This document shows positions 44 through 45,892 of a stretch of DNA of 64,000 nt, piece after piece. Position numbers and translations under genes: made by a program. Source of the stretch: Macrolepiota albuminosa (lineage: Eukaryota; Basidiomycota; Agaricomycetes; Agaricales; Agaricaceae); the NCBI GenBank assembly GCA_027475525.1, contig JAMWFC010000125.1, positions 515,723-579,722 of the forward strand, in the 5' to 3' direction. Below the pieces are notes generated by a model. That model was given only the letters and a program-made list of their open reading frames with translations. It was not told the origin of the DNA and did no database searches. Position 1 is the stretch's first letter. Every line of letters starts with the position of its first letter.

Positions 44-780
44 GTGGACAAATGCGACGACGCGCTACCTGGATTCGCGTACATAACAGAGACGGTAGCA
101 CCGGAAATCAAAGAAGAGGCCACGCCACCCAAAGAAGCTACGTCCATTGACCTGGTCAAAACCTACCTTAAGTCGCTAAGATCTAGCGACGATCCTGCCA
201 TCCTCACTGTGGCCCAAGACTCTCATGCGATTCGCTCGATTATGTTGACAGTTGATGGAAAAAGCAAGATAGAGTCTATCGTGGACAGCGGATCACAGAT
301 TATTTGATTCGCTCGATTATGTTGACAGTTGATGGAAAAAGCAAGATAGAATCTATCGTGGACAGCGGATCACAGATTATTTCAATGGCTGCCGACGTCG
401 CTAACGAGCTTGGCATCATTTACGACCCGACCATCATTCTTAATATGCAAAGCGCTAACGGCACTATTGATCGATCCTTGGGAATGGCCTGTAACGTGCC
501 ATGTGCTGTTGGCGATCTTACGTTTTATCTTCAAATCCACATTCTTAGATCATCTGCATACGACTTATTATTAGGGAGGCCCTTCGACGTCTTAGCCCGA
601 TCAGTAGTCAAGACGACGTCTGAAGACGAAACAATGCTAACTATTAGCGACCCTAACTCGGGCGTCAGGAGAACGGTACCAATGTTCCCCCGGGGAAAAT
701 TCCAGAAGCCGGGACCAAGAAAGCGACTTTACGTTAGCCACAACCCTTGCGAGTGTTTTCCGGCACCATCAAGGAGATGA
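44..780 (+). pseudogene. Element A protease region (Gag-Pro C-terminal part)
   Basis: Retropepsin-like aspartic protease domain of element A, which would mature the Gag-Pol polyprotein. The catalytic motif reads IVDSGSQI (DSG triad), followed about 80 residues later by the conserved hydrophobic-G stretch LLLGRPFDVL. The frame is broken by a 77-bp tandem duplication (229-382): the first copy ends in a stop at 305-307 and the second reopens in another frame. Removing one copy gives one continuous frame from position 44 to the TGA at 778-780. That TGA overlaps an ATG at 777-779 that opens the RT frame, so the break between protease and RT may be an ATGA stop-start arrangement rather than damage. 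The true start lies upstream of the window. Confidence 0.7.
229..382 (+). repeat. 77-bp tandem duplication (1 of 10)
   Basis: Two adjacent 77-bp copies (229-305, 306-382) with one mismatch, inside the protease coding region. 77 is not a multiple of three, so the frame breaks; deleting one copy restores it. It has the same period as nine other duplications in this window and is probably an assembly join. Confidence 0.95.
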
Positions 781-3700: not shown

Positions 3701-4004
3701 TGCCAAGAGATACAACATACAACATATCCGAGTCTCAGGATACAATAAATGCGCCAATGGAATCGTAGAAAGGCCTCATTTTGATGTTTGACAAGCGCTA
3801 TTCAAGGCGGTCGATGGTGACAAAAGTCGCTGGAGCAAGGCGACTTATTTGGTCTTCTGGTCGGAGCAGGTTACCGTACAAAGCTTGTGGACAATGACGA
3901 AGTCGCACAAGAAGAAGAAAACAATCAGTAATAGGACACGAAGGGGAAGGGCGCTAGACCTTAGCGCCTTGCACCTCACTTATGAAAAGAACAACAACGC
4001 ATAG
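777..4004 (+). pseudogene. pol: Element A pol: reverse transcriptase, RNase H, integrase (interrupted)
   Basis: Reverse transcriptase occupies about 1480-2250, with the active site written FIDDVGVKG (F-x-DD variant of YxDD). RNase H follows (about 2390-2700), with AVDTSYIAVGF and the acidic PKLELYGLF. Integrase (3204 onward) has the zinc-binding pattern HDDLRH...CHLC, then TDNG and IVERPH of the DDE core. The first core aspartate appears replaced: the segment reads INTMHMP where related elements usually have IDTMHMP. An in-frame TGA at 3180-3182 separates RNase H from integrase and another at 3789-3791 interrupts integrase just after the catalytic Glu. The frame then runs to 4004 but loses recognisable C-terminal integrase sequence. 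This copy cannot be autonomous. No chromodomain is seen. Confidence 0.85.
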
Positions 4005-4058: not shown

Positions 4059-5630
4059 TTACGTTCTACAGCGAGGACCCCTAACAAATCCCTCAGAGCG
4101 CCTAGGATGCTGTCTGTGGCGGAGTTGCGCAGGAGAAGGAGGCAGTGCAGGGGGGAGAATAGGCGACGGAGTAGAGGAAAAGGTCCCCGGAGGAAAGGTG
4201 GAGAAGCCGGGAGGAGATTCATTTATGGGAGCAGGCGGCGCTCCAGCGCAAATGGTGGAGGAGCCGGGGGGAGACTCATTTATGGGAGCAGGCGGTGCTC
4301 CAGCTCCGAAGCGAAAGGTGGAGGAGCCAGGTGGAGACTCATTTATGGGGGCAGGAGGCGCTCCAGCTCCGAAGCGAGGAGGTAGAGGAGTAAAAGGAAT
4401 AATGACGCGCTCAAGCGTGGCGGCACGAACGTTGTCGTCAATCAGATCCGGCAAGGGCAACCACTTCAAAGTCTGAAGCAAGGGGTCAGCGACCCTGAAG
4501 GTATGAAAGGAAAAGGGGAGGGACTAACAATATTATCTGTTTCAAGGAGTAGGAACTCCAAGCACTTTTGGCTAACCAAAATAGGAGGCTGGAGGGACGT
4601 GTAAGAAGGTACTTAATCACGCCGCCTGTAGAAACTTACCGTGTTGGGGTGACGTTCGGACTCTACGAGCCACTCCTGGGTCATAGCCAGAAGTAACCTG
4701 TAACAACAAATCAGGGTGAGGATGTTCCTGTTCTGGTGTCGAATACCGCCTGGGGGCAGTTGAGCAAAGAACATCTCGAGGCGATCTAAAACCTCAGGAC
4801 GAGGGACGGAGGTGATGTCTTTGAGAAGGAAAAAGGGAGTAGGCATTTTGAAGAACTTAACAACGCTAGGCCCGGAAATCTCAGATATATACCTAGCGAC
4901 ATTATGCAGGGTCGAAGGACTTAGGAAACAGAACTTATGCGGCACCATCACGAGGACGCGACAACAACGATGTATTTCATATATCTACGGCAGGAGAAGC
5001 AAAAAGCTGGGAATATGTTAGGCCGGTGGTGCTGCGAAGAAGATGGGATCGCCTCACTCAAACAACATGGGGGGGGAGGAAAAACAACACATGACAAGTC
5101 AAGAAGGGCCGAACCAAGAAATACGCTTGCTAACAACCGTCGGCCCCTCAAGGGGACCACAAAAAAGACGAGCGCTGGTATACTTGCGAGGGGACTAGGA
5201 GAAAAGGGCTGTTAGACACGGAAGAAGGAGAGGTGATGGCTCAGTCACTAACCAGGTAATAGCTTTCCTCCATCAAAAGTTAAAGACGATCCGCCGTGTC
5301 TTCGGTGGCAATTTCCTGGATTTGGGCAACTGTCAGAAGGGCACTGTAGTGTGCCAAGAATAGCAAGACACGCACATGGAAAGCTTGACTCCAAGTGGCC
5401 TCCGTACCAAAATGCGTTAACGGGAATGCGTCTCCCCAAATTTCACAAGCAGCCCGCAGAAGCCGACAGCAACGACCCAACTCAACTACTTCGTCGGCCA
5501 ACTTAGGAATACCCTTGGGAGGGTAATGATGAAAGAACGAGGTGGCCCGGTTCAGAAAGGTGGGAGGGTCCATGGTAACATAGGCACGATCACAGCTCCG
5601 AGTCCACACGCAACCAGACGGGGTGGCCAT
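4059..5630 (-). CDS. Element A antisense gene 2 (hypothetical, at least three exons, incompletely resolved)
   Basis: Antisense to pol. I do not recognise the protein. The first exon starts at ATG 5630, with TATAAATT at 5673-5666 about 40 bp upstream, and stays open to 5280; its donor is unresolved. A middle exon (about 4948-4640) ends at a clear GTAAGT donor after ACG, in phase 0. The last exon begins at 4472 after a CTTCAG acceptor, is in phase, and ends at the stop 4061-4059. The last exon holds three copies of a Gly/Ala/Pro-rich unit around INESPPG. The first two exons contain similar modules (pattern FFxxxPPxGI then CCRLL or CCYRLL then W), suggesting an internal duplication, possibly related to exon 1 of antisense gene 1. 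Exon borders between 5280 and 4951 are unproven. Confidence 0.5.
4196..4385 (-). repeat. Three coding tandem repeats in antisense gene 2
   Basis: Three imperfect units of about 54-66 bp, each encoding on the minus strand a peptide like GAGAPPAPINESPPG. They lie within the last exon of antisense gene 2, and unit lengths vary by whole codons so the frame is kept. Confidence 0.75.
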
Positions 5631-5665
5631 CGTGAAGACTGATGGAATCGAGTTGATGCATAAGT

Positions 5666-5673
5666 AATTTATA
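5666..5673 (-). promoter_or_regulatory. TATA box for antisense gene 2
   Basis: TATAAATT on the minus strand, 36-43 bp upstream of the ATG at 5630. Position and sequence suit a pol II core promoter; no transcript evidence is available. Confidence 0.5.
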
Positions 5674-6127
5674 GGACACGGGAAGTGTTTCGATTAGCGA
5701 CAGCGTGGGAGGACTTTTCTCAAGGAGCCAGGACCCTAACAGGAGCGCTAGCCAATCAGAAGCATTTAACTTATTCTGGGACCCTCCAAAAAGGGAATCA
5801 ACATTCGATGTTCAGCGCTTACTCACAACCGCACTAAACGGGCATAAGCGATCACTGGTTTTCTATTTCTTTATATGCTCTACTTCTTACATGGATCCGC
5901 TTAATTATTTCCAGACAGTCCCTATTTTCTAAGGCTGGCACAGTAATGGCTATTGGACCGCGTCGGCAAAGGGGTTTTTGCGCTGTGATAATCTACTGAG
6001 TGTTTCCCCTTTTACTTATTTTTCTTTTGATTACTTACAAACTGACGATTTGAAGCAAAGGGGGGCGTTTATTTTTAGTATCAAACAACAAAGTCCATAA
6101 AAAGTTTAAAGCGCTATGGGTCGGCAA
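5674..6127. other. Intergenic spacer between the two antisense genes
   Basis: No coding signal that I trust on either strand. It holds the upstream region of antisense gene 2 and the 3' flank of antisense gene 1. T-rich sequence around 6000-6050 could include its transcription end on the minus strand. Confidence 0.4.
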
Positions 6128-8645
6128 CTACGGATCATACTCGGGAAGGGCGGGATCACCCAAAGGAAGCAAGTCCCTGTCCTGGATCGCATTACTCGCT
6201 TGCCACTCAAGCGCAGCCGTAATATTGTCATGGAGCTCGAGCAGGAGGCGCTCGCGGCGAGCTAAGGTGGAAACACGAGGACGCAGGTTGGCAAGTTCGC
6301 GACCAGCGGCTTCAGTTGCATCCTCAATATGGCGGAGTTGCTGGCGAAGGTCGGCAGAGGGACGGAGGGGAGTAACGGGATAGGAGAACTCGTCCCCGAG
6401 CCAAGGGAAGGCGTTGCCAGAAACTCGCATGGTGGGAGGGGGCGTCCAAAAGGGATCGAACTTGCTGGGAGATTAGAAAAGGGGAGAAAAGGGCACGAAC
6501 AAAGACGGACGTACCCGGACAGTTACAGGCGCACGGGGTGTCCACTCATGGCACTTGTCGCCAGGGGACATAGCTCTAGCGGAAGACAGATGGATGCCGT
6601 AGGGAGGCAAGTACCTCCAGTGGCGATGACGCTCACCTTCCGGCACCAGGGTTCCTTCGGACTCCGGCACCGTAGAAGTCTCACGACTACTAGGAAAAGA
6701 GGAAAAGCTGTGGGGAGGAGTAAGGGATGGAGTAATCGGAAGAGCAACAGGAGTGTCGCTAGCCGCAACTGGTTCGGGGGCAGGGGTAGCGCCAGCGACA
6801 GACATAACGACGTCTTCGGCAGCAGGGATAGCCACTACAGCGGGAACAGGAGTGGGGGACCTATCAGTCAAGAAGTTAGCACGCGAAGAAAAAGGACTGA
6901 GGAAAAACTCGTACTGGTTACCACTGGGGCCACTCTGACAAGGGTTAGCGGCGATAGGGGGAGTAAGGCAAAGCAGGAGAGCGCGTACCGCCAACAGCGC
7001 ATCGGCATCAACAACAGGCTCAGCTTCATCATCATCCTCTCCCTCGGCATCCCTCTCAGTGCCCTCCCCCTCATCCATAGAAGACTCAGTCGAAGACAAA
7101 ACCACAGGCGTAGCAGGCGCTAGCTCGCGGCGCTTACCAGGGCTCTTGCTAGGAGACGCAGCAACAGGCTTATGTTTCAAAGGAATGGGACGATGAGGAG
7201 AGCGAGCGAAAGGTGCCACCACAGTGGTACCATCCTGGGTAGTCGGCAGCACCAGGCTGGCTGCGCTGATCAATGTGGGCTGGTGAGTAGCCGCTAGATC
7301 ACGTTGCTGCAACACGAAGTTCTGGGCGTTACAAACCAACACTGCACGTTCATAGTTCCTTTGCATGATGGCGTCCCTACCACGTTCACGAGTACAAATC
7401 CTGTTGAAGGCACAGCCTCGTTTCAATGCATCGCACCGATAGCAAGGCAGAGAGGCGGTAGGGAACCAGCAGCCCTCAGGATTGTTCTCAGACCAACACT
7501 TGTTACACTAAGAAAGAAGTCAGCAACGGCATCAACCTATCAATGGACAAACCAGTACTTACCGTGCCAATTTTTGCCCTAAACGCACAGCGCTCCAAGG
7601 GCGCAACGGTAACCTTCTTCTTGCTGCCCAGTACTTGGACACCAGCCGGGATGCCGGTATCAATGACAGTAGTATCACAGCAAAGACGCAAAAGGTCGTG
7701 AAGCTCCACGTCGGTGAACGTGGTCTGGTTAGGCGCCTATCGACATTAAAATTTAGGCGCTAAAGTCTAGCAACAACGAGCAAAGCACTTACAACATACA
7801 AAGGGGGAACACAAGCAGGGAGATTGATCTGGAAGGGGAGAAGTCAGAAAAATGGAGTAAGGAAGATAGGGAAGGAACGCACGGTACGTTTGGGAGAACT
7901 AGCACGAGCAGGGGGCGCTTGTTCAATAATAATGGTGAAATTATGCGGAGGACCGTGGGAAGTTGGGCGCGTCGGGCCGGGTTGTGGCTCACTACGGGAA
8001 ACGGCAATATGTTTGATGGCCGAATGGGGAGGGGCAGTACAGACGGGAGAAGCAGCGCTTGGGGCAGGGCAAATGGAAGAAGCAGCGCCACAAAAAGGGC
8101 TGCCAAGAATGGAAGGAGGCGGAACAGAAGTCGAAGAAGGAGGGGCGGTAGGGACAGAAGGGACAGTAGAGGCCGAGGGGGCAGTAGGAAGACTGGTGAC
8201 GGTGGGAGACATGGCAACCGACTGCTCAAAGGATTAACAGTGTAAAAAGGGGAGAAGAAAAGGAAGGACTTACCTCGCTGACCTCGGTACTAGCCAACAA
8301 TGCTTTGATCTTGTCGGATAAGGAGGGAGCCTAGTATGGGCGCTGAACCTTAGCGCCACAAAGCCAAAATCAAACTTAGAAACTTACGAAAAGGTCTGCG
8401 AAAGGGCGCAACCAATTGGCACCTTCGAACTCACGGTACCAGGCCACACACCACTCGCGAACCTCGTCACCCCGCTCCCAGGAACTGTTGGAGCCGTGGA
8501 CCACGAGCCAGCGTCGATAAAGTTGCATAATGCCAGGGACGGTTTGTGGCGCATCAGCAGGACCGACAGACTTAGCGCGATCAAATAAATAGGAGGCCTT
8601 AGCCAGGAAATTGCGGAGAGCAGAGGCATCGAAAGGAGTGGACAT
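6128..8645 (-). CDS. Element A antisense gene 1: seven-exon protein with cysteine cluster
   Basis: Exons (minus strand): 8645-8388, 8330-8274, 8221-7883, 7828-7793, 7736-7563, 7507-6515, 6460-6128; total 2190 nt, 729 residues. All introns are phase 0, with donors GTAAGT (four), GTGCGT and GTACGT. TATAAAAA at 8702-8695 lies ~50 bp before the ATG. Exon 1 is a structured N-terminal domain (RRWLVVHG...WERGDE), exon 3 is Pro/Ser/Thr-rich, and exon 6 begins exactly at a cysteine cluster CX2CX8CX7CX2CX6C, followed by a low-complexity acidic/Pro-rich region. Exon 7 ends in a probable coiled coil. The cluster resembles zinc-binding modules; function is unknown. A related gene sits in the same antisense position in element C (17891-19614). 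Every exon is open although pol beside it is broken. The frame and splice sites make a real gene likely. Confidence 0.75.
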
Positions 8646-8694
8646 GCTGGAAAGATGGGAAGGAAAACACAGGAAGGTGAAGTGCTGAAAACGA

Positions 8695-8702
8695 TTTTTA
8701 TA
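8695..8702 (-). promoter_or_regulatory. TATA box for antisense gene 1
   Basis: TATAAAAA on the minus strand, about 50 bp upstream of ATG 8645 and about 80 bp inside the polypurine tract of element A. An internal antisense promoter of the retroelement is inferred. Confidence 0.6.
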
Positions 8703-8780
8703 AGGCGCCGGCGGCATTATACGGACCGTAGCGCAGTCAAATTAACGATGGCGTTTGACTGAGGACAGTCAATTTTTCAG

Positions 8781-8791
8781 TTGGGGGGAGA
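8781..8791 (+). other. Polypurine tract of element A
   Basis: TTGGGGGGAGA directly precedes the LTR start TGATAGG. In gypsy elements this primes plus-strand DNA synthesis. It fixes the orientation of element A as plus. Confidence 0.8.
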
Positions 8792-9489
8792 TGATAGGCT
8801 TCTACTCGGACTGAGCGCATCAAGGGACATTATAGGCCGACCAACACTTGACACACTAGAGACTCCAGCGACCAGCGTTGGGTACAGAGCAGCCCTAGCG
8901 TGGGCGCTCTATGGCAAGACTTATCCATTCATCTCAATCACCAGTATCAGCCCCTCAGCGCCCTCCACTCAGTTACTTTGAAGACCAAGAAGACTCAGAA
9001 CTCATAGCGCTAGCACAATGGCGGAAGGTGACTCTGACCAAACCCCGATCAGTACTGAAAGGAGTTAGCAATTGGCGCTGTCAATCACCGAGGCACCTCA
9101 ATCAGAAGTCTAAAGGAATCAATGATGACAAGACAGGATACACGCAGAACCGACATTTAAATCTATCAAAAGATGGTATAATGTTTAGCGCCGGAATTAG
9201 TGCTCACGGCGTCTGTCGAGGATTCCCCGACCATACCCCAGGATGGCATGGCCAATTAACTTACATCAAAAAGTGAGCAAACTCGTACCACTTCTAGGTA
9301 TTTTTAGAGTCGCCATTGGTCGCCGTCACCCATGTGCTGCAGGTTGCCGTTGACAGGTGGCCATTAGCTACAGTCACGAAGAGAGGCACTAATTGGTAGC
9401 GCCGTCAATGGACTCATTTTGGAAATACCGTAGCGCATAGTATAAAAACTAGCTACTTGCCATGTATATAACAACGAATCGTAACCTCT
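8792..9489 (+). repeat. 3' LTR of element A (698 bp)
   Basis: Begins TGATAGGC and ends CGTAACCTCT. The second copy (61766-62463, inverted) ends in TCA on the equivalent strand, so the terminal A has probably mutated to T here. Both copies are 698 bp. TATAAAAACTAG lies near 9440 and the LTR contains several AGCGC words. The matching 5' LTR is outside the window. Confidence 0.85.
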
Positions 9490-9773
9490 TGAGCACCCAG
9501 TTACAAGTTTGGCGCTAGCTTCGTCGTTTACGGTGCCACCTACGGGCACGCTACGCTGCACTATTTGTCTTATTCTCCATAACTTCTCCTAAACTACGAC
9601 GCTTACCACTTGTTAGGTAGCACCTGAGGCGCTATCATCTAGCGCATCGTCCTATCACCTCTGCTTGAGCACACCGGGACCCTGCCAGGACTCCTCATAA
9701 ACCTGTACGCCAGGTGCTGGAGACGGCGTTGTACTGTGTATATGTCCAGCGCACCCAACCACAGTTGGCGTCA

Positions 9774-11560
9774 TCACTGGTCCAGCTCTAACGGAGTGCG
9801 GGGAAGGCTGCGCGGGGCGTGCTTATACACAATTGTACCCAGAATGTGGGCGCAATGGCCAGAGGAATACTCATATGACACCACTCTATTTGCGTCAGCT
9901 CCTATCAGCACCATATTCATGGCATACGAATAATAGGTGCAATGGCTGAGCGCTCCTCTAAAGCATGAATTTAATTGCTCGATATCGAGCGGCCCCCACA
10001 CCTTCACCCCCAAGCCATTGGGGATCCTCCCCGAGAATTCATCCTCGGCCCTATACTTCTGGGCCTGTAGCTCCTTGGCGCGAATCGCCTTCTTCCTTGC
10101 AATGTGCTTATTGCGCAATACTCGTTGGAACCGGTCCGCGGCTGATTCCCCCTCCTCCCCATCCTCCTCCTGCTCTGAGCTCGACTCTCCATAGTCGCTC
10201 TTGTCAGACAAGGATGGTACTGGTGCTTTGCCTTTTTCTCCTCCTCCTGCTCTGAGCTCGACTCTCCATAGTCGCTCTTGTCAGACAAGGATGGTACTGG
10301 TGCTTTGCCTTTTTCAGGCACGGTCTTCCCTCTCGCGGTTGCCACCAGACCATCATACTGCTCTGGCATGCGGGGGTCTGGGGTCAATACAACCACGGGG
10401 TACTGCTCCGGTGGGGCCGGTACAAACACCGGCAACATAAATAATATCTGGACTTCTCCTGCTCGTGTGGAAATGCCAGCAGGGAAGAGTATAACCTCCA
10501 ATTTGGAGGCATCGAGAGGCAGCTTGCGGCCGCGGCACTGACAAGACGGCCCCAACTTGGTCGGGGCAGACGATTCTAGTTGTGGCTTAGCCACCGGAGA
10601 GGCAGGCGCATTTTGTGCCAGAGTTCTCCCTCCAGGCTCAGTGCGAGGAGTGACAGTAACGGGCGCTCTTGGTGCCACAGCAACGGTTTTGGGCCCCCTA
10701 GATGGGGCCCGGGATGATGCGGTTTCCTGCTGGCCCAGGGACAGACCTGCCAAGGGTTCACTAACTGCAGTCAGCGACTCTGAGGAGGCCTGAGGGCCCG
10801 ACTCGGGTAACCGTGATGACGAAGCCACGGGCTGAGTAGGCTGCTCATGGCATGTGAATTGCACGTCCGACAGCATCCTTGCCCGTGGAGAGTTGACCGG
10901 TCGACTGGGCTGATATTTAGCGCTCTTGACCTCGGCGGTCGGTTCCTCACCCGTGGCAATTTTGCGCTTAGACGCGTGTTCAATCTGTTCCAGCGCTGCG
11001 ACACGCTGCCTCTTCATCAGCTCAATCTGGTCGAGCAATCCCTCCATCACCATCACGGCCAAACTGTCCTGCAGGAAGGACGCAGTTGCAGGGACTGGCT
11101 GTCCTGCTGCTTCCAGTCTGCCCAACAGCACGTCTGACACTGCTAAACTCTGCACTTGTGGCGCAGGCTCCCCATATGACTCTTCCACGGGCCGATGCGC
11201 CCATGGTACTGACGGCGGCCCCGTCACCACACCCGCATACGTCGGATGCGACGCAGCTGGATGTGCCGACGGTTCCTGGTAGTAGCGCTCGCGGCGCATG
11301 CTGTCCTCCAGGTGCCCATAGCGCCCTTCGTCATCGACCTCCATCTCTTGCGAGTGGAGGGGTGTCTGGTATGGAAGCGGCTCATCACGGCCTGGATAGG
11401 CCACGCCCGCTGACTGAAACTGGCTTACCACCGGATATGGCGGCTGCCTCTGGTACTGATCAGGATAATCACATTTTTGTATATTCGGGGGTCTCCCCCC
11501 TCCACTAGAGCCTTGCCGGCTCTGATCACTCTTTTGCGGCCCCAAATAGGCCATTTTCAC
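9774..11560 (-). CDS. Element B post-pol ORF, unknown conserved protein
   Basis: Sense ORF after pol, in the position where some elements have env; no signal peptide or membrane segment is seen. Removing one copy of the 77-bp duplication (10172-10325) makes a single ORF of exactly 570 codons. Its N-terminal half is Gln/Pro/Tyr-rich and probably disordered. A central module (VPATASFLQD...MKRQRVAALEQI) and a C-terminal module (GRIPNGLGVKVW...NSCFRGAL) both have clear counterparts in element F's post-pol ORF (VPAESSFLRD...MRAQRKTDFLAL; GLIPDALGVVIY...NSFFGAGL). F's version continues about 440 residues further, so B's stop at 9774 is probably a truncation. Function unknown; its conservation between two diverged elements argues that it matters to the element. 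Confidence 0.65.
10172..10325 (+). repeat. 77-bp tandem duplication (2 of 10)
   Basis: Copies at 10172-10248 and 10249-10325, extendable a few bases either way. It splits the post-pol ORF of element B; deleting one copy restores the frame. Confidence 0.95.
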
Positions 11561-11717
11561 TAGACACGTAGACTACGTGTATTGGGACTGAGAAAAGAAA
11601 GAAAAAAAAACAATCTCCCAACTCCGCTAGTGGTGTAAACAACCACAAATACATGCCACCCAGCCTCTCACCGGCGATCAAAGTGGACTTCGTCCACATT
11701 CCACCACCACACACGCG
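11561..11717 (-). other. Spacer between pol and post-pol ORF of element B
   Basis: Short non-coding gap on the minus strand between the pol stop (11718) and the post-pol ORF start (11560). No feature recognised. Confidence 0.5.
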
Positions 11718-12753
11718 TTACGTGCGTTTTGCTAGCTGTTGAGGGCGTTTCACGCCCTGCAACTCTAGATACCTGTCCATCGCTGCAAGGTCTTTGCAGT
11801 TCACTAGTGGTTCCCAGGTAGTATCACCTAAGCTCCACCTTACCTCGAATTCGAGGCTTCCTTTTGTCCACCGATGACCTATGAGGTCATCTACAAACCA
11901 CTCCTGGTCATTGCCAGTTCCAAAGTCATACAGCTCTGGAGTTGCGCAGTTAGGGAAGAGCACATCACTACTGACCATATACGGTCACAATAGCGACATG
12001 TGAAACTTGGGCACTATCCTGCGTGCTTGCAGCACCTGGGGTAGTTCCAGCACATAGTTAGACGTGCTCGGCTCCGCCTCAAGGACCTTATATGGTCCAA
12101 TCCACTTTGGACACAACTTACTCGCCCTGCCTTTTGGCAGGTTCAAGTTCTTCGTTGAAAGGTACACTAGGCTCCCTTTCTCGATGTCCAGCTCATCACG
12201 TCTGCGATTATTTGCATGTTTGGTCTGCCATACACACAATTCTATAATCGCGTCATGGGCATCTGCCAGATTCCTTAGCGTGTTGCGTGCAAACTGCTTT
12301 ACTCCCACATGAATAATTTCGTCTGTACAAAGTTCACGAATCATGGATGGCATGTAGCCATTGTTGAGTTCAAAGGGTGAATACCCTGTAGTTTCTGATA
12401 TGCTCGCGTTTATCGCAAATTCCACAAGGGGACATCTATCCACCCAGTCCTTCTGATCAGGACGTATGAATGCTCACAGGATTTGCACGATATTTCTATT
12501 TGCGCGTTCAGTTTGACCATCCATTTGTGGATGAAACGACATTGACATGAGCAACTTTGCTCCCAGCAGTTTGTGCAACTCCTTCCACCATTTGGAAGTG
12601 AACTTAGCATCTCGATCGCTTACAATCAAACTTGGCAGTTCATGGAGGCATACTATCTCCTTGAGATAGATCCACAACAAGTCCGACGCTGTCATGGTGG
12701 TTCTCACCGGAATGAGATGGACCATACTGGTCATTCTGCAGATCACTACCCAC

Positions 12754-12853
12754 NNNNNNNNNNNNNNNNNNNNNNNNNNNNNNNNNNNNNNNNNNNNNNN
12801 NNNNNNNNNNNNNNNNNNNNNNNNNNNNNNNNNNNNNNNNNNNNNNNNNNNNN
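12754..12853. other. Assembly gap (100 N) in element B pol
   Basis: Exactly 100 N, a placeholder length. Flanking code jumps from mid RNase H to mid integrase; element F has about 1.1 kb between the same points. Confidence 0.95.
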
Positions 12854-14421
12854 GTCTGCCATGTTTTACCCTGGCCAAACATGGCCCCAACCCCAGTCTT
12901 CGACGCATCGCAAATGAGCCAGATGGGCTCGTTGATGCGTGGGTCAATTGGCCAGATGACTGGCATTTTTGTGCATATGCGCTTAATCATCTCAAAACAC
13001 CGCTGATGCAGTGGTCTCCAATGAAATGGTGACCCATTCTGGGTCATGGCCATAAGTGGCCCGGTGTATGCAGTGATGTCTGGCAAGAAGTTGCCAATAT
13101 AGTTCACAAGTCCGACAAATCGTTGGATATCATTATATGTGCGTGGAGTACGCCACTCTCGGATTCAATTGAGCTTATCCGTATCCAGGTGAATGCCCTT
13201 CTTGTCAATGACGTGACCGAGACAATCTATACTTGTTGCGTACAACTCGCACTTCTTCCATTTGAGATAGAGGCTGGCCTTCCGTAGCCATTCAAATACG
13301 ACTTGTAGGTGCTGCTCATGCTCCTCAATGGTGTCAGAAAATATGAATATATCGTCTAAATAGACGTGCATAAACTTCCCGATTACATCTCGGAAGATTG
13401 AGGTCATTAACCTCTGAAATGTTGCCGGTGCATTACAATCACCTATCTGCATGATGTTACTCACAAACGTCCCCATCAGGGATGAGAACAGCGTCTTTGG
13501 TATATCCTCTTCACGTATGCAAACCTGTTCATACACGTCTGTGAGGTCAATTTTCGACCTATACTTTGCTGTCGCAACATCTTCTCGTATTACTTCCTGA
13601 TCTGGAAGAGGTGTCACATCCTTGACTGTATTATCATTGCGCTGTCGCGCATCCAATGCAGTCCTTAATGTCCCATCTTTCTTGGGAATACACAATAATG
13701 GTGCAGCTTGCACCGCTGGTTGTGGTTCCCACCACTTTGCGTTTATATATCTATTCGTCTTTTCACGAAGTTGATCCTGTAGTGGTCGCAGACAGCAAGG
13801 CAGATGATACTTGTACTGCTTAGTATTATCAATGAGGTTAATCTCATGGTTAACCTCCCACCATGGAGGAAGCTCTTCCTTTGTTCCATTGACAATATCA
13901 GCAAACTCATGTTGCCATTGCTGGTGCAATCGAGGAATATCCTCCTCTGTAAGGCTCACAGCCTTACCTTTCCCTTTTGCTATGTGTGCTATACGCGGTT
14001 GAACCTTTGGTTCAAATCGCTCCCATAAGGCACATACGTGCTCTTCTGTGAGATCTCCTGGATTCAACCTTACAACAGGTTGTCTATCTACCACTCTCAT
14101 CATCCTTGACGACAACTGCACACTTCTCGCTTTCAACAAGAGTCCATCGCATACGATATCCATTGTTTCAGAGATCTTGTCCTCTCATGCGTGACGGTAT
14201 ACTTCCCCCATCTGGGTTGCCTGCACCCTTCCCATAGTCTGCGTCACCATTGACACCACCAATTCGTTCCACTCCCGTGGCATACATGGGTCATACGCCC
14301 ATTGCACTCCTGGCCGAGGCACTGGTCGATCCATTAGCGACCTAGTGCTACCCACAGTTCCCATTGTACTATTCACCTTGTCCTTGATGGAAAATCCTCA
14401 ACCTTCACTCGGGAGCTAGTC

Positions 14422-14575
14422 GGCTGGCATTCCAGCGACTCCACCACGCGTCTACCACGCTCATTCTTGCACTGTACAGCCTGTTTAGGCTTTCCATTGG
14501 CTGGCATTCCAGCGACTCCACCACGCGTCTACCACGCTCATTCTTGCACTGTACAGCCTGTTTAGGCTTTCCATT
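14422..14575 (+). repeat. 77-bp tandem duplication (3 of 10)
   Basis: Copies at 14422-14498 and 14499-14575, identical by eye, in the protease-RT linker of element B. Deleting one copy puts the upstream protease frame in register with the RT frame. Confidence 0.95.
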
Positions 14576-14735
14576 GGTACATGTACCCAATCACATCCGG
14601 GTGCTTCCCCTTCTTCAGAGTTCCTTGAAACTCTTCCTCAGACATCAGTATAGCCGGCGAGTCTGCCGGCAGGCTTTTCAGTGGGACCTGTTCGTCCTCC
14701 ACCTCCTGTACAGTCGCTCTCCTGCGACCATCTAG

Positions 14736-17085
14736 TCAGTTGCATTCATCACGCCGCTTTTCAGTTGCGCGATAGCGCCTCAGCCGACCATCTGTGTTGT
14801 TTAACACAACTTTCTCCACCTTCAAAGGTGTACCATTCACTACAACCATGTTGTTCACAAAATCCAGCGACACTTTGTTCTTACGCATGAACGGCGTACC
14901 AATGATCATATCATAGCGATCAAAATTCGCTATATCCACATATTCTCTTGTTGACGTCCCTGACGTCTTTATTCTCACTTCCGTGCCAAACTGCACCATG
15001 GCGCGACTCCCTACAGTCCCCAGCTGGAGCATCAGCTGTAAGGGCGACCTCTAGAGGCTGTGGCTTAGTCACACAGCTGGCAGAGGGAGATCCAAAGTGT
15101 ATTAGAATATATACTGACAATATCAAGGTAGCTACTCACCTGGCAGAGGGAGATCCAAAGAGAACAAGTCTGGGGATTCCCTATGCCAGGTTGGACGCTT
15201 CTGGGGCCTCTGAAGCATGGGAAACAACTGTACAGTACAACAAAACCTTAAAAACTCGAAAATTGACTAACCAAACAAGTGTGCAAACAAGGGAGGAAAA
15301 CTCCGGACTTTAGAAGTCAGAAAGGCAAACTCCGGCTTATCTAAGCAGCCTGGAGCGGTGCTGAAGGGCCCACACTTGTCTGAGTGATAGCTAAAGAACC
15401 AGAGCACCTCAAAGATTGAGAATAGTACTAACAGATAGTGTTGAAAAAGTAGTAACAGCAAAATGAGAGAATAATAGAAGAAATAAGGAAGTGAATGAAA
15501 GGAGAGTGAAGAAATAAAGAGTGAAAGAAGAAAGGAATGAGGAGTCCCCTGACATCAGCGGCTCCTCCAGTTCATGAATGCGAATCGCGTTGACGTGAGC
15601 AAACTGGGGTGTAATGCCCATAGTGGTACTCCCAGAGTCTCACAACGTCCATGCTGGATGTCCATTGACATCAACATATGTGACCAGGCAATCCTTCTCC
15701 TTGGGAGTATAGCGTGGCCTGTGCAACTTATTAGTTGCCTTCTGCAGGGTTACGCGTCTCATTCGGATGCGCTGATCTCCACGGCACTCAGTCAGTGCAA
15801 ACAGGTGTTCTTCCTCGTCCTCACAAGCATAATAGTCGCTGTCATACACGTCCACTGCAATGTATTCGTTGCCATCAATCTGGACGCTCTCAGCGTCATC
15901 CACTTCCGACCCATCAGCCTCTACTTGCGGCTCCTCCTCCGTTTCGTCGACGATCTCATCGTCCTCGTTGTCACTGACAACATCGCTTGGTGCCACAGCC
16001 GTATGGGCTGCTCGGATGTGTGCCTTAGGAGGGGCGGGACACTCCTTAGTGAAATGTCTGCTCCTGCCACAATTGTAGCACGCTGAGGGATCCCCTGCAG
16101 GCCTTCTCTGGGCCGCTCCTGGAACCCCAGCGGTTTTGCCCGCCATACACGCTGCAGGCGCCACCACTCCTCTTGGTGCTACTTGATTCTGACCTGAAAA
16201 GGGTCAACTATCCTTCGCTGGCAATTGTCCAGCAGGCTTTGATTGAGGCCGTTGGCCTCCAGGGATTGTCTTACGAACAACAAATCGTGGATTGCGATTG
16301 TTCTCCATCTCCGTCTGTTTGGCCAGGAAGGTTCCCACCTTCACTGCCTGACGGCTCACAGTTCCTCGGCAGGAACTCCGCTGCTCATAATAGTTCGCCG
16401 TCCGTGTTGACTGCTCATACCGGATGGCATATGCCAAAAATTTGGTCACAGTATTGACCTCCAGAGACAAATTGTCGTTGCATATCAACGCTCTCCTCAT
16501 GTCTGTGGGTATTCTGTCCAGGAATGTCTCACGAATAGTGTATTGATCTGGATAGACGGCCATATTCTGTGCATGACCCACCAGGTCATCATAAAAGGTC
16601 TGGACACCAGTCTTAGCGTCATACACTGCCTTTCTAAAGGCATCACGGGCTTCCTGCATCGTAGCAGCGTTGACGAAATGATTGTACAGTCCTATCAGGA
16701 CTTCTTTAAATGTCCAATGCGGTTTGTCGTGATTAATGTGGAGAACATGGCAACGGAACCAATTCCGAGCCTCTCCCTCCATAAATTCGTGTAGCACGAA
16801 TATCCTCTCCTGGTCCATGTCGTCTCCACCATAGCAGCAGGCTGCAAGGTGGTAGCACACGTCCATGGCCCAGTCCTCCAGTTGAGAGAACCTATGTCCT
16901 CCGGCGTACGCACATATGTGCTTACCATCAGATTTACGGGGACTTACCCCAGCAGGGAACTTAAATCTGACTCCAAGGGAGTCATCCACCAGACGAGTGA
17001 GACGGTCATGCATATGATCCATATGGATCCTGACCGCTTCATTCATGTCAGGTTCCGCTGAGTCGGGGGCTTTCCGGGAAAGCAA
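14736..17085 (-). pseudogene. gag: Element B gag and protease (interrupted)
   Basis: Capsid-type Gag domain at 17085-16400 (LEDWAMDVCYHLAAC, ERIFVLHEFMEGEARNWF, VQTFYDDLVGHAQNMAVYP), closely matching the Gag of element F. A CCHC zinc knuckle (CYNCGRSRHFTKEC) follows near 16080-16040, then an acidic linker and the protease (DSGSTT; later FDRYDMIIGTPFM). An in-frame TGA separates capsid and knuckle at 16204. Another falls just before the protease active site at 15640, where F has Trp (TL-W-DSGS). The solo LTR 15037-15554 interrupts the protease; the code resumes in register across its target duplication. The 5' end lies against a C-family LTR, so the original start is uncertain. Confidence 0.8.
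15037..15554 (-). mobile_element. Solo LTR of family G (518 bp) inside element B protease
   Basis: Inverted relative to the LTRs of element G. It starts TGTAAGGGCG and ends CCCCTGACA on the plus strand, and is flanked by the 5-bp target duplication TCAGC (15032-15036 and 15555-15559). It differs from G's LTRs at roughly ten positions by eye, so it is an older insertion whose internal part was removed by LTR-LTR recombination. Confidence 0.95.
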
Positions 17086-17095
17086 TCGCCCTTAC

Positions 17096-17762
17096 AATGC
17101 GGACTTGACCCACGGATACTTGGGTGTCTGGAACTCCGGGGCTAGGACTCCGGGGTTCAAGACGTGGACAGGGGTAATCCCGGGAGAGAGGACTTGGTCC
17201 AGGGGTTTTGGGTGGTGAGTGGCCGGGGAATTCGGGTGGGGGTCGAGTCGTGAACCAGAGGTTCTAAGATGAGACCAAGTTAGTAAATTAAAGTCGCGAA
17301 GTGCGTACCAGTCTTAGAGCACGCAATTATCCAAGCGTGCCAGTCAAGCGTGCCAGTCAATGTGTACCAGTCAAATAAAGGGCATGCAACAATTCAAGTA
17401 ACCAAGTGAAAACAGTGTAAGCAGTGTAATATCAAGACTCACAAATACAACGGGGAACTACGCTATAAGTACTACGGGACCGGGTCTCGGGGCTCCAGGG
17501 TGTCTGGGATGGGTTCCGGGGGTCATTGAGTAGCGGGCAGGGACTGTATACCTGGATCACGCGTGTGGGGCGCACGATCAATTGGTGCGGAGGGAGCTGT
17601 GATGCGTGATGCACGTAATCCAATCGTTGATCGGGGTCGGTGGTGGCTGATGGCGGTCCTTGATGCGCGTGATGGCGGTGTCGGCAGTCATGATGGCAGG
17701 GCGTGTCCTGTGGGGTCGGAGGGAGGGTCCCGGGGTGGGTCCGGAGGGGAGGGGTCGTGACA
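17096..17762 (-). repeat. Probable 3' LTR of element C
   Basis: On the minus strand it would begin TGTCACGACC (ending TGACA at 17762 on plus), directly after a purine-rich stretch, as expected for polypurine tract plus 3' LTR. The outer end is not proven because no second copy is in the window; it appears to abut element B gag near 17095. GC-rich DNA with an AT-richer middle (17280-17470) and short repeats of GCGTGCCAGTCAA near 17335-17370. Confidence 0.5.
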
Positions 17763-17776
17763 TCACCCTCCCCTCA
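17763..17776 (-). other. Polypurine tract of element C
   Basis: On the minus strand GAGGGGAGGGTGA runs directly into the presumed LTR start TGTCACG. It supports minus orientation for element C. Confidence 0.6.
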
Positions 17777-17890
17777 GCGCCGAGACCCTCCAAGGCGTGC
17801 GTAGCTGGTGGTCCGGACTGGGGTCCAATCATGGGATCCGGCACCTGACCTGCCACGTATCGAAAAAAAATTTTACCATCAAGTTCAACC

Positions 17891-19614
17891 ATGTCATGTA
17901 CGCTGACGCATTCCCCGATGCCCCCGCCCACTAATGAAGTTGCACCCTTGGTTGCGTGGGAGTCCCGGGATGCCTGGTACCAGCACCGTCTAGATCGAGA
18001 GTGTATAGCGGCACTCGCCCAACAGCGTAAGTGTTGCCGTGCCAGTCGCTTATGGCAACTGACCTTCCCCTTTCAGAACATCCCAACATTTCTGCCCCGG
18101 AGGCGGGTCCTAGTCGGCTCCCAGCACCTGCCCCCAATGCGGCCTCTGGCGGCTCCTCGGGGCCAGGTCTCAGCCATCCCGTGCCCAATTTTGCGCGGAT
18201 GACCGTGTGTCCTCCCCGTCCTCCTCCGCGGCCTCGACTGCCAGCCCCTCAATTCCGCCGCTCCGGAATGGCGGTAGGGGCGATCACAGAGGTCCTGAAT
18301 GACCGGTGCGTTGCGTGGTCGGACGTGTCACAGGAGGTTTTTGAGGAGGCCCTGGAGAGACTCTGGGGGCTGCCTCCTCACAACTGGTGTGTGAGTAATG
18401 GGCTGGTAAGTGGGTCCTTACCTCGGGTCTCCTGGCTGACCTTGGTGTTGCAGTGTCTGCACTGTGCCTGCTGGCTGGTGCCTTGCTTATTCGAGGCTCC
18501 GGCGCCCTCGTCCCGCCGGGACACTTCCGTGTGTGAGGCGTGCCGCCTCAACCACGAGCGGTGTTCCGTGTCGACACTGTGGAGGGTGCGCTGTGTCGTG
18601 CAGGAGCAGGGGTGGCCGTTGGGGGGGGTCACCCAGAGGATGGGGGTTGAGGAGCAGGACTGGATGGTGGAGCTGGCAGGAGAGGCATCCGTAGCGCCCG
18701 CGGAGGTGCCCAGTGGGGGGTCGGGGGGCCGGGAGGTCGTCCGGGTGGCGGGCTGGGGCCGCCCCATGGTCCTGATCACGTGTCGGGCGACCCGGGCCAG
18801 GACCGGGAGTCACAAGGGTCGTGGGGGGTGTCCTGACAAGAGGAAGAGGTGGGCGTCGCCTAACCCCTCCCCGGGGCTCTCCAAGAAGACGTGTCTGCCC
18901 TCTGGGACCCCACCTCCGGTTTTTCCCCCACGCCTATCTCCGGCGGTGTTCTCGCCTCTGTTGGGGTGGCCTCTGGGGGCGGACATAAGGGTTCTGCTGG
19001 AGCACCCGGGAGAGTCCGAGGAGGCCGTCGTGCGGAGGGAGTTGGAGGCAGGTCAGGAGGCGCTTCGGCAGCTGGAGGAGGCCCGAGCCGCTTGGGGGGA
19101 GGCAGAGGCAGAGCTGGAGGCGTTGCGGGTGAGGTTGGAGCAGGGAGTGGGGATCCCAGAGAGGGCCCCCTCGGGACAGGAGGTGATGGAGGTTCTGCGC
19201 CGTGACGTGGTGGTTGCATGCATGGCATCTCTCAGTGAGTCCTCTGTTGCCGGATTACTTCTTCTGCTAACGTCTCCAGGCTGGGCCCGGGAGCATCGTC
19301 TGCTCCTGGATGGGGTTGCCGCGGCACTGGCCTTGCTACAGGAGGGGCAGCATCCGGAGGTGACGACCCCCAGGGTGGAGCGCGGGCTTGACCTCCTGGG
19401 GCGATTAGTGGTCGCCCACCGGTGGAGGAACGTACCCGTCCCGGGGTCCTGGTTCGAGCGAGTGTTGGATGAGGGTGAGCCCCTCCCGTCTTGGGAGCTC
19501 CTGGCTGAGGAGGTGTGGCGGGAGCACGGTCTAGAGGGGGTGGGGGAGGATTTCCGGGGTTGGCCAAGGGGAGGGGAGGGCGAGGGGAGTCACAGTTTGG
19601 GGCCCCAGCGTTAG
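17891..19614 (+). CDS. Element C antisense gene: four-exon protein with cysteine cluster and coiled coil
   Basis: Antisense to element C pol. Exons: 17891-18026, 18077-18405, 18454-19234, 19280-19614; 1581 nt, 526 residues. Donors are GTAAGT, GTAAGT and GTGAGT; acceptors TTTCAG, TTGCAG and CTCCAG; the last intron has a GCTAAC branch-like site. Exon 2 is Pro-rich at its start. Exon 3 opens exactly at the first cysteine of CX2CXCX4C, followed by CX2CX6C (CEACRLNHERC). Exon 3 later has a Glu/Arg/Leu coiled coil (QEALRQLEEARAAWGEAEAE), and exon 4 ends in Gly/Glu-rich sequence. Cluster, preceding intron and antisense position match antisense gene 1 of element A, so I infer homology. Introns 2 and 3 are 48 and 45 bp, so unspliced reading also stays open there. 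Function unknown. Confidence 0.7.
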
Positions 19615-19744
19615 GGGTGGCATTTTGATGTTTTCTTTTTTCTTCTTCGTTCGTTGTGTTTCTTGTCCTGGCCTAGAACTGTAGATAGTGTACTTGTAAG
19701 AAAAGATGTATATACTCAGTCTTTCGGAGTAAGTAAGAAAGGAA
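19615..19744. other. Spacer between converging antisense gene and pol of element C
   Basis: The 3' ends of the plus-strand antisense gene (19614) and minus-strand pol (19745) converge here. T-rich sequence 19625-19660 could serve the plus-strand transcript end. Confidence 0.4.
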
Positions 19745-22700
19745 TCATGTAAGTAATGCGGCGGAAAAGCTGGAAGGAGACCCTGCTTTGGCTCTGGGGC
19801 GCTGCTTATGAGAAAAGGTACTAAAAAGGGAGTAAGTTCTAGAAAGGGGAAGCAGAAAGTATACATGGGAGTTGAATCCCTGCTGAGCCCAGAGGCGGGA
19901 GTTACACCCACTACTGCCATCTGTGAGTCCTGCGCCTGGGTGCCGTTGTTGGAAGTCCCGGAGTTTGTCGAGGGCACCTTCAAGGTTTTGGCGCGGTTCC
20001 CAAGTGTCGTCTTCCGGGCCATATTCCTTCCATCGTACGAGGAAGTGGGGTTGTCCACAAATATTCCAGGAGTCAAGGATGTCTTCAACCTCGTAGTGGT
20101 ACTCGTCCTCGACTTCGACCGGGGGAGGGGGCTCGGGGCGTCGTTCAGGGAAGGGATCCAGGGGGTGTCGTTCCAGGAGGCGGACGTGGAATACTGGGTG
20201 CAGACCTTTTAGTTCCGGGGGGAGCTCGATCTTGTAGGCGTGGGATAAGACCTTCTTCAATATTTTGAACGGGCCAAAGTGCTTGTGATCGAGCTTTGAG
20301 GAGGGCCAGCGGGTGCGGAGGTGGCGTCAATCTAACCATACCTTTGTTCCGGGGGCCCAGTCGGGGGTGTCTTCCCGTTTCCAGTCGGCGTGTTTTGCAT
20401 AGGCCCGGTTCGCGGTGTCAATCTCTTCCCGGAGAAACTTGTGAAGGGATTGGAGATCCTGGGCAGCGTGCAACGGGATGTCCCGGAGCGAGAGTGTCAG
20501 TCGAGGGTGGTATCCCTTGTTGGTAAAGAAGGGCAATACCCCGGTGGCAGAGTGCGGCGTGTTGTTGTAGGTGAACTCAGCCAGGAGGAGCTTGGCGCGC
20601 CAGTCGTCCTGCAAGTAGTTGACGTACAGTTGGAGGTACTGCTTGAGAGACTGGTTGACCCTTTCGGTTTGACCATCGGTTTTGGGGTGATAGGCAGTAG
20701 AGAGGTTAGTCTTTACTTCAAGGGCCTTACACAGGGAAGTCCAGAATTTGGATACGAAGAGTGGGCCACGGTCGGAGACAATGTCATCTGGGAGTCCATG
20801 TTTGGCGAAGACGTGCTTGAGAAACAGCCGGGCAAAGTCTGGGGCGGTATCCGTGGTGTGGCAGGGTAGGAAGATGCCCTGTTTGGTTAGCCTACACACA
20901 ACAACAAGAATGGCATCGAACCCTTCAGATTCCAGGAGTTCGACAATGTGGTCCAGGGATATGGAGGACCAGGGGCGTCGCCCGACCAGCAGGGGTTTCA
21001 GGAGTCCATATGGTCGGTGTCAGGGGATCTTGGCCCAGAGGCAGGGTTTGCATGATCGAATGTAACGGGTCACGTCCTTCTTCAATCCTGGCCAAAAGTA
21101 AGTCTGGGAGATAAGCTGAAGGGTCTTACGTATTCCCGGGTGTCCCCAGAGCTTGTGGTCGTGGTGTTGATGGAGGACATTGTAGCGGAGTCGGGCGTAA
21201 TCCGGGACGTAGATGTGGCCGCCCCGGAGGAGGAGTTTTTTGTTGGGGCACAAGGAGAAGGCAGGGTCTTGGTCGGTTCCGTTGGGGGGGTTGCGGGGGT
21301 CGTGGTTGATGAAGTACTTGTCTCGGGGGGTGCAGCGGATCTGGCTCAGGGTCCCTTTGTTGTTTAAGATCAGTACGGCATTCAGATGTTCAGGAGGGAT
21401 CACCACACGATGATTGAACGCATTGCGTTCCGCCTCAAATGACTTCTTGGGATAGATGTCTGGTCGATGGGTGAGGGCATCGGGTTTAGCTCTGAGTCGT
21501 CCTGGGCGGTACTGGATTGTGAAGTCGTATTCCAAGAGAACTTCGGACCATCGGGCCTGCCGTCGACTAAGTTGCTTGGTCGTGGTGAAGTACTGCAGGT
21601 TGTTGTGATCCGAGTAGACCTGAATCCGGTGCCGGGCTCCCTTGAGGTAGGCTCGCCATTGTTTGAAGGCTTCGACGATGGCGAGGAGCTCCTTGTCATA
21701 GATGTCATAGCTGAGCTCAGCGTCGATCATGGACCAGGTGTAGAAGGCAACTGGCCGGGGCTCTCCGCTGTCAGGTTCCATCTGCGAGAGAATCCTGGCA
21801 ATGGCGTAGTCAGAGGCGTTGCATTCCAGGATAATCGGGAGGGCTGGGTCGTAGTGCCGGAGTACGGGGGCGGCCATGAAAGCCTCCTTGAGCAGGTGAA
21901 AGACACTGTGGCACTGACTGTCCCAGTTCCAGGCGACGTCCTTGCGTGTGAGCTGGTTGAGGGGTTTTGTGATACCGGAGTAGTTATCTATGAACCTCCG
22001 GTAGAAGTTAGCGAAACCCAAGAAGGATTGTGCTTCCTTGACGTTCTAGGGTTGTGGCCAGTTGACGATGGCCTCAACCTTGTGGGGGTCCATGCAAACG
22101 CCATTCGGGGATACTATGACGCTGAGATACTCAACCTCTTCCATGTGGAATGAACACTTCTCAGGCGTGGCATGGAGGTTGTGCTCCCGGAGGCATTCAA
22201 GGACTTGCCGGACATGTTTCTGGTGGTCCTCCTGCAAGTCAGAATAGATGAGGATGTTGTCCAGATAGACGATCACAAAGACGTCACTCATGTCATGGAA
22301 GATGTCGTTCATGAAGTATTGGAACGTGGCAGGAGAGTTAGTCATTCCGAAAGGCATCACAAGGTACTCAAACAGACCATACCGCGTGCGGAACATGGTT
22401 TTCCACTTGTGTCCTGGGGCGATGCGGATGTTGTTGTAACCGGAGCGCAGGTCGATCTTCATGTAAACCTTGGCACTGCGGAGTCGATCGACCAGGTCGC
22501 CGATGAGTGGGAGCGGGTAGCGGTTCTTCTTGGTGATCTTATTGAGTCCCCGGTAATTGATGCAGAGTCAGAGCGAGCCGTCCTTCTTCTTGATGAATAG
22601 AACTGGGGCTCCGGCAGCGGAGGCGGAGGGTCGGATGAATCCCTTACCGAGCATTTTGTCGAGGTAGTCCTTGAGGGCCTGGAGTTCAACTTCCGACATG

Positions 22701-23515
22701 TTGTATACCTTGCTGAAAGGGGGGGTGGCTCCTTCCTCGAGGTCGATGGTATGGTCATAGGGGCGGTGAGGGGAAATCTCCTTGGCATCTCCTTCGGAGA
22801 ATACATCAGCGAAGTCGTGATACTCCAGGGGAACTACTTCTCAGAGGATTTGCTCCTCGGTTTTCTTTTCCGGGGGAATAGCGTCCCCTCGTAGATGTTC
22901 TTCCGGGAGAGAAGGCGAGGTGTGTAGCTGAAACGTGGGAGTTCCATCCTTCATGAGGTGGGTGAAGGGGGTGGCCCCAATGATCCTAATGTCAAGTGCG
23001 TTCAGGTCGATTGGGGTCGCGGAGGCATTGGCCGGAGTGGGTGTGACGCGTGTCTGAGACTGGCAGGGGTAGTTCGGCCCTTTGTACTTGTTCCGAGGAA
23101 TGTTTGGGGGTCAATCGGGGGCCTTGCGGTCTCGGACGGGCATGGGTGGTGCATGCGTGGGGGGCGTGGCAGTTGTCCCAGGGGTGTCGGGCGTCGGGTT
23201 GTTTCCTAGGGCCCGGAGGTGCACGGTGGTTGAGGGGTGGTTTTCGGGTCCTGGGAAGGTCATGGTGAGTGTCCTCCAATCGATGTCGGGGTTTGTGTCG
23301 TGCAGCCAGGGTAGTCCCAGCACCATCGGGGTCAACTCGTGAAGTCGCATGACCAGGAAGTCCAAGGTGAACTCATAGTCGTTGTCCAGGGTCACGTGTC
23401 CCGAGTGAGACCTCTGGATCGGGCCAGAGGAGGAGTAACCTAATTTAAACATAGTGACATGATATCTATTTAGACTATAGCAGTGTACAGTAAGCATCGA
23501 TAATCTAGTGGAATA
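19745..23515 (-). pseudogene. pol: Element C pol: protease, RT, RNase H, integrase, chromodomain (inactive)
   Basis: Protease remnant ends GLPWLHDTNPDIDW. RT has [18 protein letters not shown] and the active site [10 protein letters not shown], where the second catalytic Asp is Asn. RNase H reads LECNASDYA where ECDASDYA is usual. Integrase has the zinc motif region (HPGIRKTL...CKPC), SLDHIVELL, VSDRGPLF and DGQTERVNQ. The C-terminal chromodomain is well preserved ([26 protein letters not shown]) and would target integration to marked chromatin. In-frame stops: TGA in RT (~22567), TAG near 22048, TGA near 21018 and TGA near 20328. All visible catalytic changes fit G-to-A or C-to-T. Non-autonomous. 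Confidence 0.85.
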
Positions 23516-45890: not shown

Positions 45891-45892
45891 GC

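Follow-up and report, generated by a model that had tools for sequence, protein, structure and literature searches.

Multi-intron genes antisense to pol lie just inside the 3' LTR of two distantly related gypsy-type retrotransposons in Macrolepiota albuminosa

Genes encoded opposite to pol have been described in several groups of LTR elements. One fungal example is brtn, which in Boty-like elements, a gypsy group of Botrytis cinerea and Sclerotinia, sits antisense in the interval from pol to the 3' LTR (Zhao et al. 2011, Virology 417:248, as cited in PMC7264820, PMC8365987 and PMC4227169). The plant elements Retand, Grande and RIRE2 are described as carrying antisense ORFs at the corresponding place, and GENE23 of Grande is reported to be nuclear and to have a promoter upstream (PMC11963269, PMC7264820). 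In the retrovirus HTLV-1, the spliced antisense gene hbz is driven from the 3' LTR and is described as encoding a nuclear regulator of sense expression (PMC10186651).

Here we analysed a stretch of 64,000 nucleotides from M. albuminosa (the window), in which two elements, A and C, each carry a multi-intron gene antisense to pol and just inside the 3' LTR. The coordinates of the original prediction, 8645-6128 for gene A and 17891-19614 for gene C, hold, and we confirmed that both genes form multi-copy families between pol and the 3' LTR. Both elements are gypsy-type LTR retrotransposons, as judged by RNase H and integrase domains, paired LTRs and target-site duplications; neither of the two copies in the window has an unbroken pol.

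The pol piece of element A (747-3179, plus strand) encodes a divergent reverse transcriptase (RT) and RNase H (Pfam RT_RNaseH, 7.7e-10; no Pfam match to RVT_1 was obtained for this piece), and an integrase piece is located at 3204-3788 on the same strand (Integrase_H2C2, 1.2e-15). The 3' LTR (TGAT...ATCA, about 985 bp) occupies 8792-9776 on the plus strand; matches in copies begin and end at these two positions, and its first 697 bp recur in inverted orientation, with 97% identity, at 61767-62463. Exact target-site duplications were found for two of the three A elements read (GCGC/GCGC and CCGC/CCGC), while that of the third (C65), read by eye, agrees at three of four bases. Four of the five pol pieces fetched besides that of the window were matched and all lie antisense to gene A; the fifth (L089) gave no match in this orientation test.

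Gene A is encoded on the minus strand (8645-6128) by eight exons, with an open spliced coding sequence of 711 aa. The exons are located at 8388-8645 (ATG at 8645), 8274-8330, 7883-8221, 7793-7828, 7563-7736, 6915-7507, 6515-6860 and 6128-6460 (with the stop), and the sixth opens with the first cysteine of CX2CX8CX8CX2CX6C. The seven exons originally proposed were rejected. An additional intron of 54 nt (6914-6861) was recognised because the interval contained an in-frame stop in 9 of 10 copies inspected and the alignment was unusually variable there. With eight exons the coding sequence is intact in the window and in 13 of the 29 fetched copies, and 16 of 30 sequences (window included) are not intact as modelled. 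The ATG lies 147 bp from the LTR edge, and the TATA box ahead of the gene (TATAAAA at about 8702) was kept in all three sequences compared. Element A also contains a second spliced antisense gene, A2 (4059-5630, minus strand), which by three-frame reading starts with an ATG at 5630 and whose last exon ends at 4059, the position where the interval of the original prediction began. The A2 model is partial and provisional, with a first intron at about 5375-5316, shorter by 7 nt in 12 of 15 copies, and a further donor at 4639.

In element C the 3' LTR (TGTCA...TGACA, 717 bp) spans 17046-17762 on the minus strand and has its outer edge, 17046, in common with most copies. By Pfam, pol extends over 19531-23460 on the minus strand, split into several frames, with RNase H and the integrase zinc domain at 21020-22021 on the same strand. 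Two of three C elements read have exact target-site duplications (CATAG/CATAG and CCTGC/CCTGC), and no clean duplication was seen in the third (C126). Gene C, on the plus strand at 17891-19614, consists of four exons as predicted, located at 17891-18026, 18077-18405, 18454-19234 and 19280-19614 (with the stop). Its spliced coding sequence is open over 526 aa, and exon 3 opens with the first cysteine of CX2CX6CX15CX2CX6C. The ATG lies 129 bp from the LTR edge, so that both genes agree with the predicted start 115-150 bp from the polypurine tract; no TATA box was evident ahead of gene C. The gene is intact in the window and in 12 of 30 other copies, the intact ones including eight near-identical copies (L016-L023) and two that look like one duplicated stretch (L011 and L012), and 18 of 31 sequences with the window included are not intact as modelled.

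A total of 82 gene C loci were found. RVT_1 was detected within 8 kb of 43, the other 39 having no scored RT in range, with RT scoring covering 150 of 2743 RT candidates. At 42 of these 43 loci gene C is antisense to and 3' of RT, and at one (C115:1300303) it is on the same strand. All 13 C-family LTR pairs examined, with a spacing of 9.9-10.6 kb, enclose gene C in the direction opposite to the LTRs. Among the copies fetched, which were the best-scoring only (29 A and 29 C, 58 together), LTR edge and gene start were matched in 29 of 29 for C; for A the match was unbroken in 26 of 29 and in pieces in L043, and the rearranged copies L040 and L045 have no LTR beside the gene. Within this one genome, neither of the outcomes named as refuting the original prediction was seen: full-length elements with the arrangement exist, and the homologues among the fetched copies adjoin an LTR in 29 of 29 C and 27 of 29 A copies.

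The packaged genomic RNA of LTR retrotransposons is the sense strand. The introns of an antisense gene are recopied in every cycle, because in the sense RNA they are mere complementary sequence and are not spliced. GT..AG was retained at 163 of 174 introns of gene A and 82 of 87 of gene C, and no precise intron loss was found among the 58 fetched copies (L040 is rearranged and aligned only partly). Since intron-bearing copies lie between near-identical LTRs with target-site duplications, antisense placement is the simplest reading of intron survival, which supports the proposal that such introns outlast retrotransposition. Protein P0001, a database entry of different origin and the one match for gene C among about 8000 candidates scored, has an insert exactly at intron 2, as an unspliced reading of this intron would. 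The fold of a single intron gave no signal, and an Rfam scan of the window found nothing.

The exons of both antisense genes are under purifying selection. NG86 dN/dS was 0.22-0.31 for gene C and 0.13-0.38 for gene A, in each case for 10 pairs from five chosen sequences, with dS among diverged copies of up to 0.82. In gene C, third codon positions show 1.4-2.4 times the variation of first and second positions, and 136 exon indels are of length 3n and 17 otherwise (29 non-independent copies). All six cysteines keep their register in 29 of the 31 C sequences and in each of the 30 A sequences. The codon-position pattern, the 3n indels and the kept cysteines together show that selection acts on the protein.

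In both genes this Zn-cluster-like block begins exactly at a phase-0 exon. The Zn(2)-Cys(6) cluster (PF00172) likewise has six cysteines, ordered CX2C..C..CX2CX6C, but the gene C block has a 15-residue middle loop and the first half of the gene A block is CX2CX8C. PF00172 did not match gene A, nor the window copy of gene C at E<=0.1; it scored 8.9 bits for the whole L018 copy of gene C and 16.0 bits for its 68-aa piece, below the cut-off of 21. A coiled-coil hint in protein C was also below cut-off, no solved structure matched a gene C cysteine piece, and structure predictions of the two cysteine regions (mean pLDDT 47.0 and 46.1) were not used. Searches of contigs from viral and prokaryote genomes found no relatives of gene C, and gene A had none in viral contigs or in the protein database (about 8000 candidates scored).

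The two elements had been called unrelated; their pols are distantly related (21.6% identity between A and C). Pol of element D is 24.2% identical to that of A and 43.9% to that of C over 998 residues, and element D, which is related to C through its pol, leaves no space for a comparable antisense gene. The two genes, however, may descend from one ancestor. Both have a phase-0 intron directly ahead of the first cysteine, similar spacing and a KR/SP stretch downstream, an arrangement noticed after the fact that is suggestive only; protein comparison detected no homology by BLASTP (E 3.7, with an earlier, wrong last exon of A) or HHalign (probability about 0.1%). It is conceivable, though rather doubtful, that a single Zn-cluster-like family of antisense genes, with A and C as divergent representatives, has persisted in gypsy lineages with pols about 22% identical or has passed from one lineage to another, and such a modular, intron-bearing regulatory gene might stand behind many unnamed Cys-rich fungal families.

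Position, exons, selection, spread of intron-bearing copies and cysteines are firmly established. The explanation as a whole, that each is a gypsy-type element in which pol and the 3' LTR flank an antisense transcription unit, is likely. The promoter of the unit would lie just inside the 3' LTR, and the spliced transcript would encode a nuclear protein that combines the Zn-cluster-like block with a basic stretch and, in protein C, possibly with a coiled coil. This protein could regulate expression or integration of its own element in the style of HBZ of HTLV-1, a role that we propose tentatively by analogy. An error of the gene models or assembly is highly improbable: tandem duplications spaced 77 bp apart are indeed numerous in the assembly, but these disrupt frames instead of making them, and the identical exon structure is repeated in many separate insertions.

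Host genes are typically rich in introns, and fungi have many Zn-cluster proteins, which would fit a cellular gene taken up once in antisense by each family and now carried as a passenger. We consider this unlikely, since low dN/dS across copies as diverged as these speaks against a neutral passenger, and only two of 58 fetched copies, both rearranged, have no LTR beside the gene; capture may still have been the origin, followed by recruitment. Slightly less probable again is that the antisense RNA rather than the protein matters, by forming dsRNA with the genomic RNA and damping the element, as proposed in PMC7264820 for plant antisense ORFs. The protein-level selection described above argues against this, but RNA and protein roles may occur together.

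The antisense unit shows how as many as seven introns can be accommodated in a gene borne by a retroelement, and its many natural copies make selection on an antisense protein measurable. Some intron-rich, Cys-rich annotation families of fungi would be reassigned from host genes to retrotransposon genes. Antisense genes have a precedent in fungi: brtn of Boty, compared by description only, likewise occupies the antisense strand between pol and the 3' LTR of a fungal gypsy element. No spliced case in a fungal LTR element was recognised in a literature search by title and abstract start, which covered few subscription papers and is weak evidence of absence. The plant antisense ORFs are distinguished by the TRP28 domain (PF04195) and GENE23; no Pfam family, TRP28 included, matched protein A or C at E<=0.1, and the word "intron" is absent from the main texts on these ORFs (PMC11963269, PMC7264820). 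Like A and C, hbz of HTLV-1 and APH-2, -3 and -4 are spliced antisense genes, but the hbz product is a bZIP protein of an animal retrovirus, to which we claim no sequence relation. Multi-intron antisense genes in two distant fungal gypsy lineages, both with a Zn-cluster-like block at a phase-0 exon, look new, and with them HBZ and GENE23 would have a probable counterpart in fungi.

In the window (C94:515723-579722 of a 100-Mb genome in 129 contigs), the gypsy elements A and C each carry a spliced gene between pol and the 3' LTR on the strand opposite to pol, as the original prediction stated. In element A, pol lies on the plus strand within the window's first 4 kb and is interrupted by stops, gene A lies at 8645-6128 (minus) and the 3' LTR at 8792-9776. 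In element C, pol (19531-23460, minus), gene C (17891-19614, plus) and the 3' LTR (17046-17762) were located. Introns were 45-57 nt long, which together with the kinds of element points to a fungal, probably basidiomycete, source. Both antisense genes are intact and both adjoining pols are broken.

Gene C was searched against its own genome and gave at least 110 matches, merged into 82 loci; 82 of 2033 candidates were scored, hence this is a lower bound. A scored reverse transcriptase (RT) lay within 8 kb of 43 loci, and at 42 of these gene C ran antisense to the RT and lay 2.5-3.8 kb 3' of it, as predicted for its homologues; the other one (C115:1300303) was on the same strand. At the remaining 39 loci no RT was found within 8 kb among the 150 of 2743 RT candidates scored, which, at that share, does not mean that RT is absent. 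A 541-bp element C LTR probe gave at least 40 full-length matches (best 40 of 1743 candidates scored), 26 of which form 13 pairs at a spacing of 9.9-10.6 kb, with 14 unpaired at that spacing. Seven pairs enclose a gene C match from the genome search, and pieces fetched at the expected place in the other six contained gene C in every case (6/6), opposite to the LTR orientation. Target sites at the outer LTR ends of three elements read CATAG/CATAG and CCTGC/CCTGC, with no clean duplication in the third (C126). LTR edge and gene start were both matched in 29/29 fetched copies.

Gene A gave at least 155 matches in its own genome (61 of 2744 candidates scored). A-type pol was antisense to the gene in 4/5 fetched pieces, and the fifth (L089) had no A-type pol match. 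The A LTR probe gave at least 40 full-length or nearly full-length matches (best 40 of 1433 scored); among those listed, eight form four pairs spaced 12.0-12.7 kb. Three pairs enclose a gene A match (C114:3580411/3592446, C114:3870117/3882399 and C65:2096235/2108982), with target sites GCGC/GCGC, CCGC/CCGC and ACGG/ATGG, the last read by eye; for the fourth (C36), no gene A was among the matches listed. LTR edge and gene start were matched in one stretch in 26/29 copies, in pieces in L043, and L040 and L045 were rearranged.

The four-exon model of gene C (526 codons) stood, the predicted coding sequence being intact in the window and 12 other copies (13/31 sequences, 8 of them near-identical to each other). 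For gene A, a multi-exon antisense gene was upheld and the predicted exon number was not: the seven-exon model met an in-frame stop at one common place in 9/10 copies inspected, where the alignment of copies is unusually variable. A stretch of 53 or 54 nt with GT start and AG end is present in 29/29 copies, and splicing it gives eight exons and 711 codons, intact in the window and 13/29 copies. Non-intact copies L042, L057, L061, L062 and L066 were lengthened by a 77-bp duplication, taken for an assembly artefact.

Relative to the gene C copy of the window, 29 others differed by 11-21% at first and second codon positions, 18-40% at third positions and 12-39% in introns. Exon indels were of length 3n in 136 cases and not in 17 (29 copies, non-independent). 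NG86 dN/dS, from ten pairs of five chosen sequences each, was 0.22-0.31 for gene C and 0.13-0.38 for gene A, the latter on the seven-exon model with stops in one of the five copies. Six cysteines stayed in register in 29/31 C and 30/30 A sequences. Taken together, these sequence patterns show that both proteins are under selection, or were until recently. GT..AG was retained at 82/87 gene C introns, one intron (in L031) was cut by a deletion, and no precise loss was found across the 87 introns in 29 copies. In gene A, GT..AG was retained at 163/174 introns (seven-exon model), with 4 of the 11 exceptions in the rearranged L040. No intronless copy was found among the fetched A and C copies.

Element A has a second predicted spliced antisense gene, A2 (5630-4059, minus); a TATA-like TATAAAT precedes its ATG by about 40 bases. 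Its first intron was 7 nt shorter in 12/15 copies, and a 57-63-nt repeat (4183-4365) lies in its last exon. In nine copies the match to the window stops or drops at 5520, within A2, so another version may exist in a subfamily.

Not all gypsy elements of this genome carry the antisense gene, since element D (45363-51942), a gypsy chromovirus with a single 1802-aa ORF, has no space for it: the ORF ends at 51413 and the terminal repeat (99% identical over 300 bp) matches from 51417. Its pol is 43.9% identical to that of element C. Element B (10004-17045, minus), another gypsy element, seems to be cut by the element C insertion (17046) and by an inverted D-family terminal repeat copy (15032-15565); its 518-aa sense ORF after pol (11560-10004) had no Pfam match. 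Tandem arrays with spacings of 48 bp and 87 bp lie at 31543-31893 and 35303-36014. Tandem duplications at 77-bp spacing (once 154 bp), 95-100% identical in the window, occur in exons and introns alike at 229, 10162, 14422, 30206, 33823, 46831, 53035, 53743 and 58688, and in copies L016, L042, L053, L057, L060-L064, L066 and L067. They are probably assembler artefacts from unmerged k = 77 overlaps, and as one in an exon shifts the frame, genes called across these sites of the assembly cannot be relied on.

Elements A and C are distant: their pols share 21.6% identity over 315 residues, and their LTR lengths and target sites (4 bp and 5 bp, respectively) differ. Protein A did not match protein C by BLASTP or HHalign. 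In both, the cysteine block starts where an exon does, its first codon directly following a phase-0 intron; the spacing is CX2CX8CX8CX2CX6C in A and CX2CX6CX15CX2CX6C in C, and a basic KR/SP stretch lies downstream. This shared arrangement may reflect common descent or convergence. Pfam Zn_clus fell short of its 21-bit cut-off with 16.0 bits for a piece of one C copy and did not match A; therefore, neither was placed in that family. The coiled-coil family Cep57_CLD_2 scored 18.9 bits in the same C copy (cut-off 27.1). Outside this genome, database protein P0001 (source lgn, 1466-bp contig) matched 43% of gene C at 54% identity, its insert sitting exactly at the position of intron 2; no relative of A was found among the protein candidates scored.

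The antisense transcription unit would begin just inside the 3' LTR and yield a putative nuclear protein. Sense genomic RNA holds just the complement of the introns, so that these most likely escape splicing ahead of reverse transcription.

The arrangement itself is already known, because PMC7264820 names Grande, RIRE2, Retand, PvRetro13 and, among fungi, Boty as carriers of antisense ORFs, and PMC10186651 describes hbz as a spliced antisense gene. What is new is the multi-intron form in two gypsy lineages that are only distantly related, within a single, probably fungal, genome, provided that Zhao et al. (2011) do not already describe it for Boty. The nearest known cases to the antisense genes of A and C are HBZ, GENE23 and brtn.
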